In this document: one piece after another, positions 8 to 56,555 of the stretch
Layout: each line of letters begins with the position of its first letter
Position numbering within the stretch: the first letter of the stretch is position 1
Assembly: GCA_025458525.1 (NCBI GenBank)
Contig: JALOSF010000004.1
Coordinates: 1-64,000 of the forward strand
DNA length: 64,000 bases
Origin: Cypionkella sp.
Lineage (GTDB): Bacteria > Pseudomonadota > Alphaproteobacteria > Rhodobacterales > Rhodobacteraceae
Reading direction: 5' to 3'
The notes under the pieces: model-generated
The model's input: the letters and a program-made list of their open reading frames with translations, nothing else
Databases searched by the model: none
Told to the model about the DNA's origin: nothing
Translations under genes and position numbers: made by a program

Positions 8-82
8 GCGGGCGTAGCTCAGGGGTAGAGCATAACCTTGCCAAGGTTAGGGTCGTGAGTTCGAATCTCATCGCCCGCTCCA
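8..82 (+). tRNA. tRNA-Gly (GCC)
   Basis: Cloverleaf gcgggcg...cgcccgc acceptor pairing, anticodon loop cttGCCaag, TTCGAATC T-loop, encoded CCA at 80-82. Confidence 0.95.
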
Positions 83-50198: not shown

Positions 50199-51800
50199 AT
50201 GAAATACTACCTGCTGGGAACTGCCGCCGTTCTGGCCCTGACAGCGGGGGCGGCCCGGGCGGATTACACGCTGCATGTCCTGCACATCAATGATTTCCAC
50301 AGCCGGATCGAACCGATTGGCGCGTCCGGCTCTACCTGTTCGGCCGAGGACGCGGCGGAAAACAAGTGTTTTGGCGGCATCGCCCGCTTGTCGGCCAAGG
50401 TGAACGCGCTGCGCGACAGCCTGCGCGCGGCGGGGGAAAATGTGATCGTGGTCGATGCGGGCGACCAGTTTCAGGGCAGCCTGATGTTCACCACCTATCG
50501 CGGCGCCGCCGAGGCCGAGTTCATGGAGGCGCTGAAGCCCGACGCCATGGCCCTTGGCAATCATGAATTCGACGATGGTCCCGAGGGGCTTGGCGCCTTT
50601 CTCGACAAGGTGACGTTCCCGGTGATTTCCGGCAATCTGGATGTCAGCCAGTCCAATGTGCTGGCCGGACGGGTGCAGAATCACGTGGTGCTGGAGGTCG
50701 GAGGCGAGAAAATCGGGATCATCTCGGCACTGGCGACCGATACGCCCGAAACCTCCAGCCCCGGCAACAGTGTGATCTTTCAAGACGATATCGACAGCCT
50801 GAAGGCCGATGTGGCAACGCTGGAGGCCGAGGGGGTGACAAAGATCATCGCCGTCACCCATGTCGGCTACAAGCGCGATCAGGAAATCGCAGCGGCGGTG
50901 CCGGGGATCGATGCGGTGGTTGGCGGGCACAGCCATACCTATCTGTCCGCCACCGACCCCGAGCGGGCAGGCCCTTATCCCACCTGGGTCAGCCAGGAAT
51001 CGGGTGCGCTGATCCCCGTGGTTCAGGCCGGCGCCTATTCGAAATACCTTGGTCATCTGGAACTGACCTTCGACGACAGCGGCGCGCTGATCTATGCCGG
51101 CGGCAACACGATCCTGCTCGATGCGACTGTTGCCCCCGATGCCGCGATCGAGGCACGGGTCAAGGAACTTGCCGGCCCGATCGAGGAGTTGAAGGCGCGG
51201 GTCATTGGCGAAACCGCGGCCGAGATCGATGGCAGCCGCGAAACATGCCGTCAGCAGGAATGCCAGATGGGCAACCTTGTGACCGATGCGATGTTGGACC
51301 GGGTCAAGGATCAGGGCGTCACGATTGCCATCACCAACGGGGGCGGCCTGCGGTCTTCGATCGATGCCGGTCCGGTGACGATGGGCGAGGTGCTGGGCGT
51401 TCTGCCATTCCAGAACACGCTTTCGACCTTTACCGTGACCGGGGCCGATCTGGTTGCCGCCCTGGAAAACGGGGTCAGCACGCTCGAAGATGGCGGCGGG
51501 CGTTTTGCTCAGGTGTCGGGCATGAAATACACCTTCGATCCGGCGCAACCCGCTGGCAGCCGGGTCTCCGAGGTGATGGTGCTGGTGGGCGGCGACGCCT
51601 GGGCGCCGATCGATCCGGCCGCCGACTACAACGTGGTGTCGAACAACTATGTTCGCGGCGGTGGCGACGGCTATCGGATGTTCGTGGATGCCCGCAATGC
51701 CTATGATTTCGGGCCGGACCTTGCGGATGTCACGGCAGAGTATCTGGCAAAGACGCAGCCCTACACGCCCTTTGTCGATGGCCGCATCACCCGCAAGTGA
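50199..51800 (+). CDS. secreted 5'-nucleotidase / metallophosphoesterase
   Basis: Signal peptide; LHINDFHSRIEP; DAGDQFQGSLMF; LGNHEFDDG; ITNGGGLRSSIDAG. Confidence 0.93.
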   Translation: MKYYLLGTAAVLALTAGAARADYTLHVLHINDFHSRIEPIGASGSTCSAEDAAENKCFGGIARLSAKVNALRDSLRAAGENVIVVDAGDQFQGSLMFTTYRGAAEAEFMEALKPDAMALGNHEFDDGPEGLGAFLDKVTFPVISGNLDVSQSNVLAGRVQNHVVLEVGGEKIGIISALATDTPETSSPGNSVIFQDDIDSLKADVATLEAEGVTKIIAVTHVGYKRDQEIAAAVPGIDAVVGGHSHTYLSATDPERAGPYPTWVSQESGALIPVVQAGAYSKYLGHLELTFDDSGALIYAGGNTILLDATVAPDAAIEARVKELAGPIEELKARVIGETAAEIDGSRETCRQQECQMGNLVTDAMLDRVKDQGVTIAITNGGGLRSSIDAGPVTMGEVLGVLPFQNTLSTFTVTGADLVAALENGVSTLEDGGGRFAQVSGMKYTFDPAQPAGSRVSEVMVLVGGDAWAPIDPAADYNVVSNNYVRGGGDGYRMFVDARNAYDFGPDLADVTAEYLAKTQPYTPFVDGRITRK

Positions 51801-51931
51801 CCGAGGGTTTGCGGGGCCCGGGGGCGCTGTCCGCAGCGCCCCTTTTCCACCACAGTCCAGAAAACTCCTGTCGCGCAAACCAACGCCTGCCTTGTGCAAT
51901 GCGACAGAAAGGCGCATAGACTATCGCACGG

Positions 51932-52008
51932 GTGACCGGGCCCCTCTGGCAGGATTTGCGGCGATCCTGCGATGTCGGCACCTGATCCGACACATGCCGC
52001 CCGGTCAC
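51932..52008 (+). promoter_or_regulatory. Candidate structured 5'UTR RNA (three-way junction) upstream of DUF475 gene
   Basis: P1 GTGACCGGGC/GCCCGGTCAC enclosing P2 GCAGGAT/ATCCTGC and P3 TGTCGG/CCGACA; ends 6 nt before the ATG. Confidence 0.55.
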
Positions 52009-52014
52009 TGATCC

Positions 52015-53088
52015 ATGTCATCTTCAGATGCACTACAGCGTTCGACGCTGTCCTATTTCACTTGGGCCTTCATCGTCACCGCCATCGGCCTTGCGCTGGG
52101 GCTTTGGCTTGGCTTTTCGTCGGAACATACCTTTGCCGGCGCGATGAAGGTGTTTTTCATCGTCAGCGTCCTTGCGGTGCTGGAAATCAGCCTGTCTTTT
52201 GACAATGCCATCGTGAATGCCAACAAACTCAAGGACATGACGCCGGTCTGGCAGCAACGCTTCCTGACATGGGGCATCCTGATCGCGGTCTTTGGCATGC
52301 GGATCGTCTTTCCGCTGCTGATCGTTGTGATCGCGGCCAACGTCGGCCCCTGGTCGGCCCTGGTGATGGCCGCAAGCCAGCCCGAGGAATACAGCCGCAT
52401 CATGATGGAAGCGCATCTTCCCATCGCGGCCTTTGGTGGCACCTTCCTGATGATGGTGGCGCTGTCGTTCTTTTTTGACCACGAGAAAGACGTGCACTGG
52501 GTCCGCTGGCTGGAAGAAAAGGTATCGGCCTATTCTTCGGTCAAGGGAACCGAGATCGCCTTTGTTCTGGCCGTCATGCTGGTGTTTTCCGAAGTGATCG
52601 AGGCGCAAAAGGGCGCAGCCTATGCCACGACCTTCTTTCACGCAGCGATCTGGGGCCTGCTGACCTTCTTGCTGGTCGAGGTGCTGGGCGGCATCCTCGA
52701 CCGCAGCCAGCAGACCCTTGCAGGCGCGGCACAAGGCGGGCTTGGCGCGTTCCTTTATCTCGAGGTGCTGGACGCCAGCTTCAGCTTTGATGGCGTGATC
52801 GGCGCATTCGCCCTGTCGTCGAACCTGTTCATCATCGCCATCGGCCTCGGCATCGGTGCCATGTATGTGCGTTCGATGACCATCATGCTGGTCGAACGGG
52901 GCACGCTGGCGCAATACCGCTATCTGGAACATGGCGCGTTCTACGCGATCCTGATCCTGTCGGTCATCATGTATGTCCAGACGCTGACCCATATCCCCGA
53001 GGTCATCACGGGTCTGGGCGGTGCGGCACTGATCGGTGTTTCCTTGTGGTCATCGATCCGCTGGAACAAGGCAAATCCGGCAGAGTGA
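52015..53088 (+). CDS. DUF475 / TerC-superfamily integral membrane protein
   Basis: VLEISLSFDNAIVNANKLKDMTPVWQQRFLTWGI; LEVLDASFSFDGVIGAFAL. Confidence 0.92.
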   Translation: MSSSDALQRSTLSYFTWAFIVTAIGLALGLWLGFSSEHTFAGAMKVFFIVSVLAVLEISLSFDNAIVNANKLKDMTPVWQQRFLTWGILIAVFGMRIVFPLLIVVIAANVGPWSALVMAASQPEEYSRIMMEAHLPIAAFGGTFLMMVALSFFFDHEKDVHWVRWLEEKVSAYSSVKGTEIAFVLAVMLVFSEVIEAQKGAAYATTFFHAAIWGLLTFLLVEVLGGILDRSQQTLAGAAQGGLGAFLYLEVLDASFSFDGVIGAFALSSNLFIIAIGLGIGAMYVRSMTIMLVERGTLAQYRYLEHGAFYAILILSVIMYVQTLTHIPEVITGLGGAALIGVSLWSSIRWNKANPAE

Positions 53089-53089
53089 C

Positions 53090-53163
53090 TGGAGCGGGCG
53101 GCGGGAATCGAACCCGCGTCATTAGCTTGGAAGGCTAAGGTCTTACCATTACACAACGCCCGC
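53090..53163 (-). tRNA. tRNA-Gly (TCC)
   Basis: Minus strand cloverleaf, anticodon loop ctTCCaa, acceptor gcgggcg pairing, encoded CCA. Confidence 0.94.
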
Positions 53164-53262
53164 GCTTGCCCGTTCAGATAGTGGATGACGCGGGCAGGGT
53201 CAACCGGGCAGATCGGGCAGGTGCGCCGGTTTTCGGCCCTGCCCGGTCTGCGCCCTGCCCGT

Positions 53263-53868
53263 TCAGGGCCGGATCAACCCGCAATCGCGCGCGATCATCG
53301 CGGCATGCGTGCGGTTGCGAGCGTTGAGCTTGCGGGCAAGCGTCTTGACATGCAGCTTGACCGTGACCTCTTGCACCGCAAGATCCCGGGCGATCTCCTT
53401 GTTGGATTTGCCGTCACAAATACCCTTGAGCACCTCGCGCTCGCGCCGCGTCAGATCCTCCAGCGCCCCCGCAAGCGGCGCCGAGGGTTCCAGCATGGAA
53501 ATCGGGGCAAAGACCTCGCCGCTGGCCATGCGTCTGATCGCGGCGATCAGCGCCTTCATGCCAAGGGTCTTGGGGATGAACCCCACCGCACCGCGGGCAA
53601 GCGCCGCCTCGGCCAGATCACGCCGCGTGGTCCCCGAGATCAGCGCAATCGGCACCTGCGGCGCGACCGCGCGGGCCTGGTCCAGCCCGTCAAGACCATT
53701 CATCCCCGGCATCTGATAGTCCAGCACGGCAAGGTCATAGGGCAGCTGCGCAAGGCGCTCCAAGGCTTCGGACAAGTCCGACACGCATTGGACAGTGACC
53801 GTCCCGTCTGCGCTCAGCATCCCGGACACCGCTTCGCAGAACAGATCATGGTCGTCGGCAAGCAACAT
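53263..53868 (-). CDS. NarL/LuxR-type response regulator (upstream start at 53922 possible)
   Basis: MLLADDHDLFCEAV; VLDYQMPGMNG; LTRREREVLKGICDGKSNKEIARDLAVQEVTVKLHVKTLARKLNARNRTHA. Confidence 0.93.
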   Translation of the reverse strand: MLLADDHDLFCEAVSGMLSADGTVTVQCVSDLSEALERLAQLPYDLAVLDYQMPGMNGLDGLDQARAVAPQVPIALISGTTRRDLAEAALARGAVGFIPKTLGMKALIAAIRRMASGEVFAPISMLEPSAPLAGALEDLTRREREVLKGICDGKSNKEIARDLAVQEVTVKLHVKTLARKLNARNRTHAAMIARDCGLIRP

Positions 53869-53993
53869 ACGCAAGATTGGGACACCATTCCAAAGGGGTC
53901 TTTCGTGCCTCAGCCTTGCCATGCGGCGAATTCGCGTGAAACTGGGCTGCGATACACCCCTGTCTTTACCCCGCCCGCACAGCCAAGGCCACC

Positions 53994-56555
53994 ATGAAAC
54001 CTTCCCTGCCCCTTTCGCGCACGGCGCAGATGCCCTCGTCGCGCATTCTTGCCGTCATCGGGCTGGTGCTGGGGCTGCTGGTGGCCATCGGCTGGCTGGC
54101 CTTGGATGTGCGCGGGCGGATGGCCGCGCTGGAACGCGCCAGCAAGGACACCGGCCAATGGGTCATGATGCAGACCGAGGTCGAGGTGATGCGGCTGCGT
54201 CTGGAACTGGCGCGGGCGCAGCTGGGCGAGGCCGATCTTGATGTCGTGCGCCGGTGGTTCAATGTGTTCTACAGCCGCCTGCGCGTCTTGCGGCAAAGCC
54301 CGATCTACGCCGATTTCATCCAGCAGCCCGACAACATCGCGCGGCTGGACGTGATGCAGGCCTATGCCGACCGATGGGTCGGGGTCATCGACGGTGCGGC
54401 GCCCGACTTGCTGCGCTCGCTGCCAGAAATGGAGCGGCAAAGCGCATCGGTGCAAGCCGAGGCCCGGGCCCTGTCTCTTGACTCGCTTGCGAATTTCTCG
54501 GCCAGCAGCGACAGGACGCGCAACGGGGTTTCCGACACGCTCTTGCGCCTGGCGCTGACCACCGGGGCGATGGTGCTTTTGCTGGGCGTGTTCGCGGCCG
54601 TGGTCACGCGGCTGTTTCGCATGACGCAGGCCCAGGCGCATGAAAACCAGATCACGGGCGCGCGGTTGCAGATGATCATCGCCACATCGCCAGATGCGAT
54701 CGTCGTCACCAACCGGGGCGGCTGGGTCGTGGAATTCAATCCGGCCGCCGAGGCGATGTTCGGGCTGTCGCGCGCGGCGGTGATGGGCCGAAGGATCGTC
54801 CCGATGATCTTTTCCGCCAAGGACCAGGCCCAGTATCAGGCGCGGCTGAACAGCCTTGTGGCCGAGGCGGTCAAGGTCGGACCGCAACGGTTTGAAATGA
54901 CAGGGCTGCGGGCGGATGGCAGTGCCTTCCCGCTTGAAATCTCGCTGGCGGTGCGGGATTTCAACCGCGGCGCGCTGGTTGTCGGCTTCTTGCGCGATGT
55001 CTCGCAGCGCCATGCCGACCGGCTGGCCTTGGAACAGGCCCTGACCCGTGCCAAGGCCGGCGAAAAGGCAAAGGCCGACTTTCTGACCGTGATGAGCCAC
55101 GAGATGCGCACCCCGCTTAACGGCTTGATCGGGTCGATGGACCTGATGCACGACACCGCCCTCAGCCCCGAGCAACAAGAGCTTTTGCGCGTGATGGAGG
55201 TGTCGGGCGATATCTTGCTGGGCCATGTCGATTCGGTGCTTGATATCTCGCGCTCCGAGGCCGGGCAGATCCGCCTGCGCGATGTGGATTTCGATCTGGA
55301 CCGTCTGATCGAGGATTGCGTCGCCAATCAGGCAAGTCTCGCGCGCAGCGGCGGCAATGTGATCCGCATGGCCCCGTTGACCGGCGCCTTGGGCCGCGTG
55401 CGCGGCGATCCGGGACGGGTGCAACAGATCCTGCTCAACCTGATCGGAAACGCGGTGAAATTCACGCGCGACGGGACGATCACAGTCGAAACCGAACGCC
55501 AGCCGCAGCGATCGGGGCACGACGCGCCGCAGATCATCGAATTTCGGGTGATCGACACCGGGATCGGGATTGCCGAAGCCGACATGCCCCGCGTCTTTGA
55601 CGATTTCGCCATGCTTGATTCGAGTTTCACCCGCCCGGCCGATGGCACCGGGCTTGGGCTTGGCATCGCGCGACGGCTGGTTCAGGCCATGGGTGGCACG
55701 ATCGGGGTGGAAAGCGAGTTGGGCGAGGGAAGCGTTTTCTGGCTGCGCCTGCCGTTCCGGGCCGCCGAGCAGGCCGCGCGCACGCAAGGCCCCATCGATC
55801 CCCCCGAGCCAAGGCCGCCGCAGCCGACACCGCCCCTTGATATTCTGGTGATCGAGGACAATGAGATCAATCGCTCCTTGCTCAAGCGCTACCTCGTGCA
55901 GGACAATCACCGCGTGACCGAGGCAGAAGATGGCCTGCAAGGGGTTGAGATCGCTTCAAGAATTCGGTTTGACGTGATCATTACCGACATTTCCATGCCC
56001 CGGCTCGACGGGGTCGAGGCGGCGCGGCGGATCAGGGCGGGCGGCGCATCGGCGAAGGCGCGGATCATTGCCTTGACCGCACATGCCCTGCCTGCGGAAC
56101 AGGACAATGCGCGCGCCGCCGGGATGGACCTGTGTCTGATAAAGCCGGTGACACGCTCCACCTTGCGCGCCCAACTGACGGCCAGCCTTCCCCCCCCGGA
56201 CGCGCAACCGCCCGACCCGACGGCGCTTGATGATATGGTGCAGACGCTCGGGCGGCCTGCGGTGCAAAGACTGGTGCAGCGCTTTCTCCACGAAGGGCGC
56301 GATGCCCTGCCCCGATTGCTGTCGGCAACGCTGCCCGCGCCCGAGGCTGCTGCACTGGCCCATCATGTCGCGGGAAGCTGCGCAACCTTTGGCGCGACCC
56401 AGATGCAAGAAACCCTTGCCGGTCTGGAACATGCGCTGGCCCATGATGATGACAGCGCGGCCCGACACCTGCGCCAGATGCTGCCCCTGCAATGGGCGGC
56501 GACGGAACGAATGCTGGCCGACCTGATGGCGCCAGAGCCGGTCAACCCGCGCTGA
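53994..56555 (+). CDS. hybrid histidine kinase (TM-PAS-HisKA-HATPase-REC-Hpt)
   Basis: MSHEMRTPLNGLIGSMDLM H-box; GTGLGLGIARRLV G-box; DIILVIEDNEIN..IITDISMPRLDGVE REC; LAHHVAGSCATFGA Hpt. Confidence 0.92.
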   Translation: MKPSLPLSRTAQMPSSRILAVIGLVLGLLVAIGWLALDVRGRMAALERASKDTGQWVMMQTEVEVMRLRLELARAQLGEADLDVVRRWFNVFYSRLRVLRQSPIYADFIQQPDNIARLDVMQAYADRWVGVIDGAAPDLLRSLPEMERQSASVQAEARALSLDSLANFSASSDRTRNGVSDTLLRLALTTGAMVLLLGVFAAVVTRLFRMTQAQAHENQITGARLQMIIATSPDAIVVTNRGGWVVEFNPAAEAMFGLSRAAVMGRRIVPMIFSAKDQAQYQARLNSLVAEAVKVGPQRFEMTGLRADGSAFPLEISLAVRDFNRGALVVGFLRDVSQRHADRLALEQALTRAKAGEKAKADFLTVMSHEMRTPLNGLIGSMDLMHDTALSPEQQELLRVMEVSGDILLGHVDSVLDISRSEAGQIRLRDVDFDLDRLIEDCVANQASLARSGGNVIRMAPLTGALGRVRGDPGRVQQILLNLIGNAVKFTRDGTITVETERQPQRSGHDAPQIIEFRVIDTGIGIAEADMPRVFDDFAMLDSSFTRPADGTGLGLGIARRLVQAMGGTIGVESELGEGSVFWLRLPFRAAEQAARTQGPIDPPEPRPPQPTPPLDILVIEDNEINRSLLKRYLVQDNHRVTEAEDGLQGVEIASRIRFDVIITDISMPRLDGVEAARRIRAGGASAKARIIALTAHALPAEQDNARAAGMDLCLIKPVTRSTLRAQLTASLPPPDAQPPDPTALDDMVQTLGRPAVQRLVQRFLHEGRDALPRLLSATLPAPEAAALAHHVAGSCATFGATQMQETLAGLEHALAHDDDSAARHLRQMLPLQWAATERMLADLMAPEPVNPR

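Follow-up and report, generated by a model that had tools for sequence, protein, structure and literature searches.

A terC RNA in the leader of a DUF475/TerC-family gene of Cypionkella sp. and the predicted pairing of its P2 loop near the start codon

The locus, its promoter and the gene start

The window analysed here comprises 64,000 nucleotides of Cypionkella sp. DNA (contig JALOSF010000004.1). The leader under study is bounded by the stop of an upstream 5′-nucleotidase gene at 51800 and by the start of a DUF475/TerC gene at 52015 (Table 1). The product of the latter matched PF04332 with an E-value of 1.6e-102, PF03741 with 9.3e-20 and NF010616 with 652 bits, above the cut-off of that model. 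Directly 3′ of this gene, a tRNA-Gly(tcc) is located on the opposite strand (53090–53163, −); two more tRNAs were seen in the window, tRNA-Tyr(gta) at 257–340 (−) and tRNA-Gly(gcc) at 8–82 (+).

The first-pass annotation had placed a sigma70-like promoter, TTGTGC-N17-CATAGA, in front of the structured RNA, and this promoter is conserved in the genus at the same spacing. An alignment of the upstream regions of 14 genus leaders showed the CTTG of the −35 element to be invariant and a GGCGCATAGA-like or CATAG-like −10 block to be present in most of them, at constant spacing from the RNA. Because both elements are conserved within the genus, transcription probably starts at about position 51927, at the 5′ edge of the RNA; the structured RNA makes up essentially the whole leader, as had been proposed. 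A strict scan, the consensus being of the E. coli type, did not list the promoter at 51892–51920.

We also agree that no clear Shine-Dalgarno sequence precedes the ATG, the strongest one present being GGU at 52003–52005. Its GG is conserved in the alignment and lies here 9 nt 5′ of the ATG; relatives usually carry GGA where the window has GGU. A mini-ORF before the gene (ATG CCG CCC GGT CAC TGA) was considered and dismissed, its start being unconserved and its stop specific to the species.

Table 1 Features of the leader and the downstream gene, in window coordinates
Feature	Position	Strand	Basis
Likely intrinsic terminator of the upstream 5′-nucleotidase gene	51821–51846	+	stem GGGGCGCTG/CAGCGCCCC then TTTT, read from the sequence
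Promoter: −35 TTGTGC (51892–51897), 17-nt spacer, −10 CATAGA (51915–51920)	51892–51920	+	genus alignment
terC RNA RF03067, full-length model match	51928–51986	+	cmscan, 53.8 vs 39.9 bits
P1 5′ strand GGTGACCGG, A51935 bulged, pairs with 51975–51982	51931–51939	+	Rfam consensus
Internal-loop strand GCCCCTCTG, opposite GATG 51971–51974	51940–51948	+	invariant in the 56-sequence alignment
P2 hairpin 51949–51956/51963–51970, loop TGCGGC 51957–51962	51949–51970	+	pair counts, DUF475 tree
GCGGC of the P2 loop, 5′ strand of the pseudoknot; partner 51996–52000	51958–51962	+	pair counts, tree, swap test
P3 of the three-way junction; excludes conserved P1	51973–51992	+	47.7% of cells paired, 56 leaders
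P1 3′ strand TCGGCACC	51975–51982	+	Rfam consensus, pair counts
Pseudoknot 3′ strand GCCGC, about 14–15 nt before the start codon	51996–52000	+	outside the Rfam model
P1′ 3′ strand GCCCGGTCAC, complementary to 51932–51941; possible lineage-specific P1 competitor	51999–52008	+	
GGT in place of the relatives' GGA-like weak Shine-Dalgarno element	52003–52005	+	alignment of 56 leaders; role inferred
DUF475/TerC-family membrane protein, 357 aa	52015–53088	+	PF04332, PF03741, NF010616

Family assignment, conserved fold and distribution

A cmscan search matched the leader to the terC RNA family (RF03067) over the full length of the model (positions 1–59 of 59) with an E-value of 7.5e-8, and a covariance search of the whole window returned the same stretch at the cut-off; the scores in Table 1 are the bit score of the match and the gathering cut-off. 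The alignment and pair counts revealed the features of the family, i.e. P1, P2 and the conserved GCCCCUCUG/GAUG internal loop, and the element has the family's context, upstream of a terC-like (DUF475/TerC) gene in Alphaproteobacteria. The leader element at 51928–51986 thus belongs to a family on record in Rfam, RF03067, a cis-regulatory candidate named for terC genes. The family reportedly comes from Weinberg et al. 2017 in NAR (doi 10.1093/nar/gkx699). A literature search on the terC motif yielded papers on telomerase TERC, TerC proteins or tellurite only, and neither a ligand nor a mechanism was found.

The first-pass annotation had expected a different, new class of RNA and named an Infernal search against Rfam as the check on its novelty. 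As that search found a known family above its cut-off, the proposed class is not new. The idea of a candidate cis-regulatory RNA belonging to the DUF475/TerC gene is supported; the match lies directly 5′ of that gene. The distinction drawn from yybP-ykoY riboswitches also holds: covariance searches found no RF00080 match in 51000–54000 at E-values up to 10 and none in this genome (G000). The yybP-ykoY riboswitch controls genes of the same kind, the TerC/Alx family, from the leader, but the terC RNA is a different and much smaller structure.

Pair counts over 56 DUF475 leaders show the conserved fold, as predicted from the alignment, to be P1 plus P2 around the almost invariant internal loop. 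P1 is paired in 93.3% of the cells (100% within the genus) and P2 in 97.9%; on the DUF475 protein tree, 22 branches carry double changes in P2 and 3 in P1. Together with the pseudoknot described below, 95.2% of the cells are paired, with 93 double-change cells compared to 28 in shuffles, while slid controls reached 33–51% of paired cells. The internal loop GCCCCTCTG/GATG would be a candidate ligand-binding core. The leader thus shares P1, P2, the internal loop and the place upstream of a TerC-family gene with RF03067, and adds to the public model the pairing of the P2 loop downstream and a clade-specific competing helix.

This fold differs from the three-way junction described in the first-pass annotation, which consisted of P1′ (51932–51941/51999–52008, 10 bp), P2 (51949–51955/51964–51970) and P3 (51973–51978/51987–51992). 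All three helices can be read directly in the sequence, the ATG at 52015 begins 6 nt after 52008, and the junction is the minimum-energy fold of 51920–52030 (−43 kcal/mol, RNAfold). Hence, the complementary strings and the predicted folding stand. As a conserved structure the junction fails, because most relatives have P1′ and P3 broken; missing conservation of the helices was among the refuting outcomes that the annotation had named. In the 56 leaders, P1′ and P3 are paired in 62.2% of the cells without an excess of covariation over shuffles, and the P3 pair 55–70 (T51975–A51990) is broken in 27 of 44. Within the genus (n = 14), 74% of the P1′ and 81% of the P3 cells are paired, one P1′ pair is broken in 12 leaders and one P3 pair in 11, and the junction as a whole reaches 83.2% compared to 99.3% for P1, P2 and pseudoknot. 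Since the Rfam P1 takes the 5′ strands of both P1′ and P3, the two structures are mutually exclusive. We rejected the junction as the conserved fold. That it nevertheless represents a new cis-regulatory class and its functional structure is scarcely credible given the RF03067 match and the conserved P1 that it excludes, even though it is favoured energetically here (−41.1 kcal/mol versus −27.3 kcal/mol with the aptamer P1/P2 forced) and a 10-bp P1′ is unusual for one leader: a 10-bp match between the P1 5′ strand and the region downstream has a p of about 0.003 against shuffles. The stability of the fold itself is ordinary for this composition because 20 of 200 dinucleotide shuffles fold at least as well (z −1.53).

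The 80 DUF475 genes closest to this one in named genomes were searched with a regular expression for the core motif, and 75 have it upstream; the nearest relatives are from Pseudotabrizicola with proteins 94–95% identical, and the other five genes also lacked an RF03067 match. Within the genus, 15 of 16 genomes carry the terC RNA, as do 27 of 150 sampled genomes of the bacterial family and 52 of 385 sampled genomes of the class. The genome of the window contains a second copy (G000:C73 5136–5191, corresponding to L010 1501–1556) upstream of a TerC-family, Alx-like gene (PF03741); there, a hairpin and a copy of GCCCGG follow downstream in place of the loop pseudoknot.

Several loci deviate from the common arrangement. 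No terC RNA was seen within 1.5 kb upstream of DUF475 in five close relatives, L038, L040, L042, L060 and L063 (Pseudogemmobacter, a Paracoccus), which is a natural loss of the control element. In Rhizobiales DUF475 loci (L046, L084, L092 and others) a conserved ATG lies just past the leader, about 100 nt before the DUF475 homology, and is followed by repeated CATGC/GCATG inverted repeats; it may mark an N-terminal extension or a short leader peptide.

Pairing of the P2 loop with the region before the start codon

A complement of the P2 loop is found in nearly all DUF475 leaders, 3′ of P1 and just 5′ of the GGA-like element and the start codon. In the 56 leaders this pseudoknot is paired in 94.9% of the cells, with 15 both-side changes versus 3.4 in shuffles, and the pairing is lost on sliding by one or two columns. 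Double changes that keep the pair were placed on three branches of the DUF475 protein tree (CG>UA, GC>AU and GC>UG). The remaining changes in columns 41–77 and 40–78 are all to GU and never to a mismatch; two of the six pseudoknot columns show no variation at all. To allow for the conserved core and the relatedness of the sequences, loops were also compared with swapped downstream sequences: with their own sequences they scored 14.53, with swapped ones 12.72 (sd 0.27), and 0 of 200 shuffles scored as high. The same comparison in other bacterial families, made across the class on leaders whose loops have five or more bases and which belong mostly to TerC/Alx genes, gave 14.00 versus 12.36 (sd 0.59), with 0 of 300 swaps as good.

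Unrelated loop and site partners of 7–9 bp were found in L148, L158, L139, L143, L184 and L185. Long independent examples are CAGGCGGCTGT/ACAGCCGCCTG in L024, GTCGGCGCG/CGCGCCGAC in L148 and GCGGGAG/CTCCCGC in L184 and L185, while other loops pair with the Shine-Dalgarno sequence itself (CTCCAG/CTGGAG in L161, CCTCC/GGAGG in L164). Leaders with a tetraloop mostly lack the pseudoknot, which makes it an optional part of the terC family rather than a universal one. The RF03067 model stops at 51986, so the pseudoknot cannot be contained in it.

These comparisons show a predicted pairing of the P2 loop with a site about 10–15 nt before the start codon, here and in many terC leaders. It could be argued that GCCGC is conserved near the AUG as part of the ribosome-binding region and complements the loop by coincidence, as it adjoins the GGA/GGU element, its CG never varies and the G+C content is high. 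Yet loop and site change together, from GCGGC/GCCGC to GCGAC/GTCGC with GU intermediates and from CTGCGGC/GCCGCAG to CTGCGGT/ACCGCAG, other families form the pairing with sequences that are quite distinct, and the fit drops when partners are swapped; coincidence is therefore quite unlikely. In SAM-II and preQ1-type riboswitches, too, a hairpin loop pairs at or just before the ribosome-binding site. The terC leader resembles them in this loop pairing but is unrelated in sequence, and a P1 stem lies between its hairpin and the site with which the loop pairs.

Possible competing helix, ligands and mechanism

With the pseudoknot not counted, forcing the aptamer P1/P2 costs about 14 kcal/mol relative to the junction. 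For transcripts that stop at 51985 the aptamer is the best predicted fold; by 52010 the junction has replaced it. A comparable long-range helix is the best fold in L020, L117, L119 and L120 only, and the complementarity is unlikely by shuffling in L020, L032 (the L119 site) and L033 (the L117 site). The 3′ strand of P1′ overlaps the pseudoknot site 51996–52000 by 2 nt. At best, P1′ competes with the aptamer fold in this lineage only.

Both folds may be used: the terC aptamer would be the ON state, and the junction would be an OFF state of this lineage, adopted without ligand, in which the P1 5′ strand is taken away from P1 and the region before the AUG is masked. The mutual exclusion of the helices, the shift of the best fold between transcript ends at 51985 and 52010 and the similar helices in the four loci named above are consistent with such a switch, but the helix occurs in at most 5 of the 14 genus leaders, other genera are without it, and the positions beside its ACCG/CGGT core are not maintained. 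We regard the use of both folds as possible but doubtful.

Control at the level of translation was inferred because the stretch from P1 to the AUG holds only the pseudoknot strand and the GGA/GGU-like element, and no terminator. Transcription attenuation might instead be considered for some TerC/Alx leaders with a downstream hairpin, GCCCGG and long spacers (L003, L010, L011, L113). For the leader studied here it appears very unlikely, as the ATG lies 6 nt past the last helix without a U-run and as matches to an anti-P1 strand in Alx-type leaders are mostly non-significant singly. On the latter grounds an anti-P1 strand was also rejected as a general expression platform, although leaders of the Alx type repeatedly have GCCCGG at a similar position. 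Where the P2 loop is short (L130, L133, L138, L139 on the + strand, L170), the sequence right after P1 seems complementary to the Shine-Dalgarno region, e.g. ATCCCTC, ATCCTTC and ACTCTTCC versus GAGGGG, GAAGGAT and GGGAG, a complementarity that would possibly provide an alternative expression platform.

The genes under terC RNAs are mostly of the TerC family, plus DUF475. Beyond these, only Pfam-confirmed families were counted, as some picked ORFs were in the wrong frame (e.g. L006, L133, L138, L161): Na+/Ca2+ exchangers (Na_Ca_ex; L022, L023), Bax1-I (L018), TerB (L146, L182, L189), DUF533 (L183), DUF4112 (L139, L155, L163), a carbonic anhydrase (L180) and a YegS-type lipid kinase (L128). In L139, L148 and L163 two terC RNAs lie back to back on opposite strands, about 100–130 nt apart, between divergently transcribed genes. 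The pair consists of a TerC-family and a DUF4112 gene in L139 and L163, and DUF4112 may share the TerC pathway. Altogether, the regulated genes suggest metal-ion or pH control of translation.

Manganese is the leading guess for the ligand, since Mn efflux is an activity of TerC proteins and a Mn riboswitch governs meeY of B. subtilis (PMC10550928). The Mn2+ riboswitch RF00080 occurs in 25 of the 52 terC-RNA genomes of the class sample, with about 8 expected. Mutual exclusion of the two RNAs across genomes, which would have argued for the same ligand, was thus discarded, and co-occurrence above expectation means that one does not simply replace the other. With RF00080 common alongside the terC RNA, there might be little need for another Mn2+ sensor, and the terC RNA may bind something else. 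The regulated genes would also suit Ca2+ or alkaline pH. We therefore consider it a serious contender, if somewhat the weaker side of the question, that the terC RNA senses alkaline pH, Ca2+ or another signal instead of Mn2+, or that it is a protein-binding leader. The Na+/Ca2+ exchangers, Bax1-I, carbonic anhydrase and TerB among the regulated genes point in this direction, whereas the dominance of TerC-family genes, one of which is under a Mn riboswitch in B. subtilis (PMC10550928), argues for Mn2+, and the invariant internal loop resembles a ligand-binding RNA core.

The reading that we favour, and consider reasonably probable, is that of an orphan riboswitch candidate in which P1, P2 and the pseudoknot sense a metal, ion or pH signal and control translation initiation, with the competing helix of the clade as the OFF state. 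The signal would be cytoplasmic, with a divalent metal (Mn2+, for instance) or the ion or pH state as the likeliest candidates, and the RNA would control translation initiation of the DUF475/TerC gene. Here and in a small number of near relatives, the helix 51932–51941/51999–52008 would adjoin the AUG and exclude the aptamer, giving the OFF state, and the aptamer fold would be ON; with the alternative polarity, the pseudoknot in the ligand-bound state could switch translation OFF. The wider proposal, that terC RNAs are pseudoknotted metal or pH riboswitches connecting a loop to the ribosome-binding region, to which this genus adds an anti-aptamer helix for a two-state switch, is put forward tentatively, its chances being slightly short of even.

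The RF03067 class was already known; what is added here is a pseudoknot outside the public model and its mechanistic implication. The pairing of the loop with the start region gives the orphan terC RNA a concrete candidate mechanism and corrects the structure to be used for probing, and the wider list of regulated genes narrows the search for its ligand to metal-ion or pH signals.
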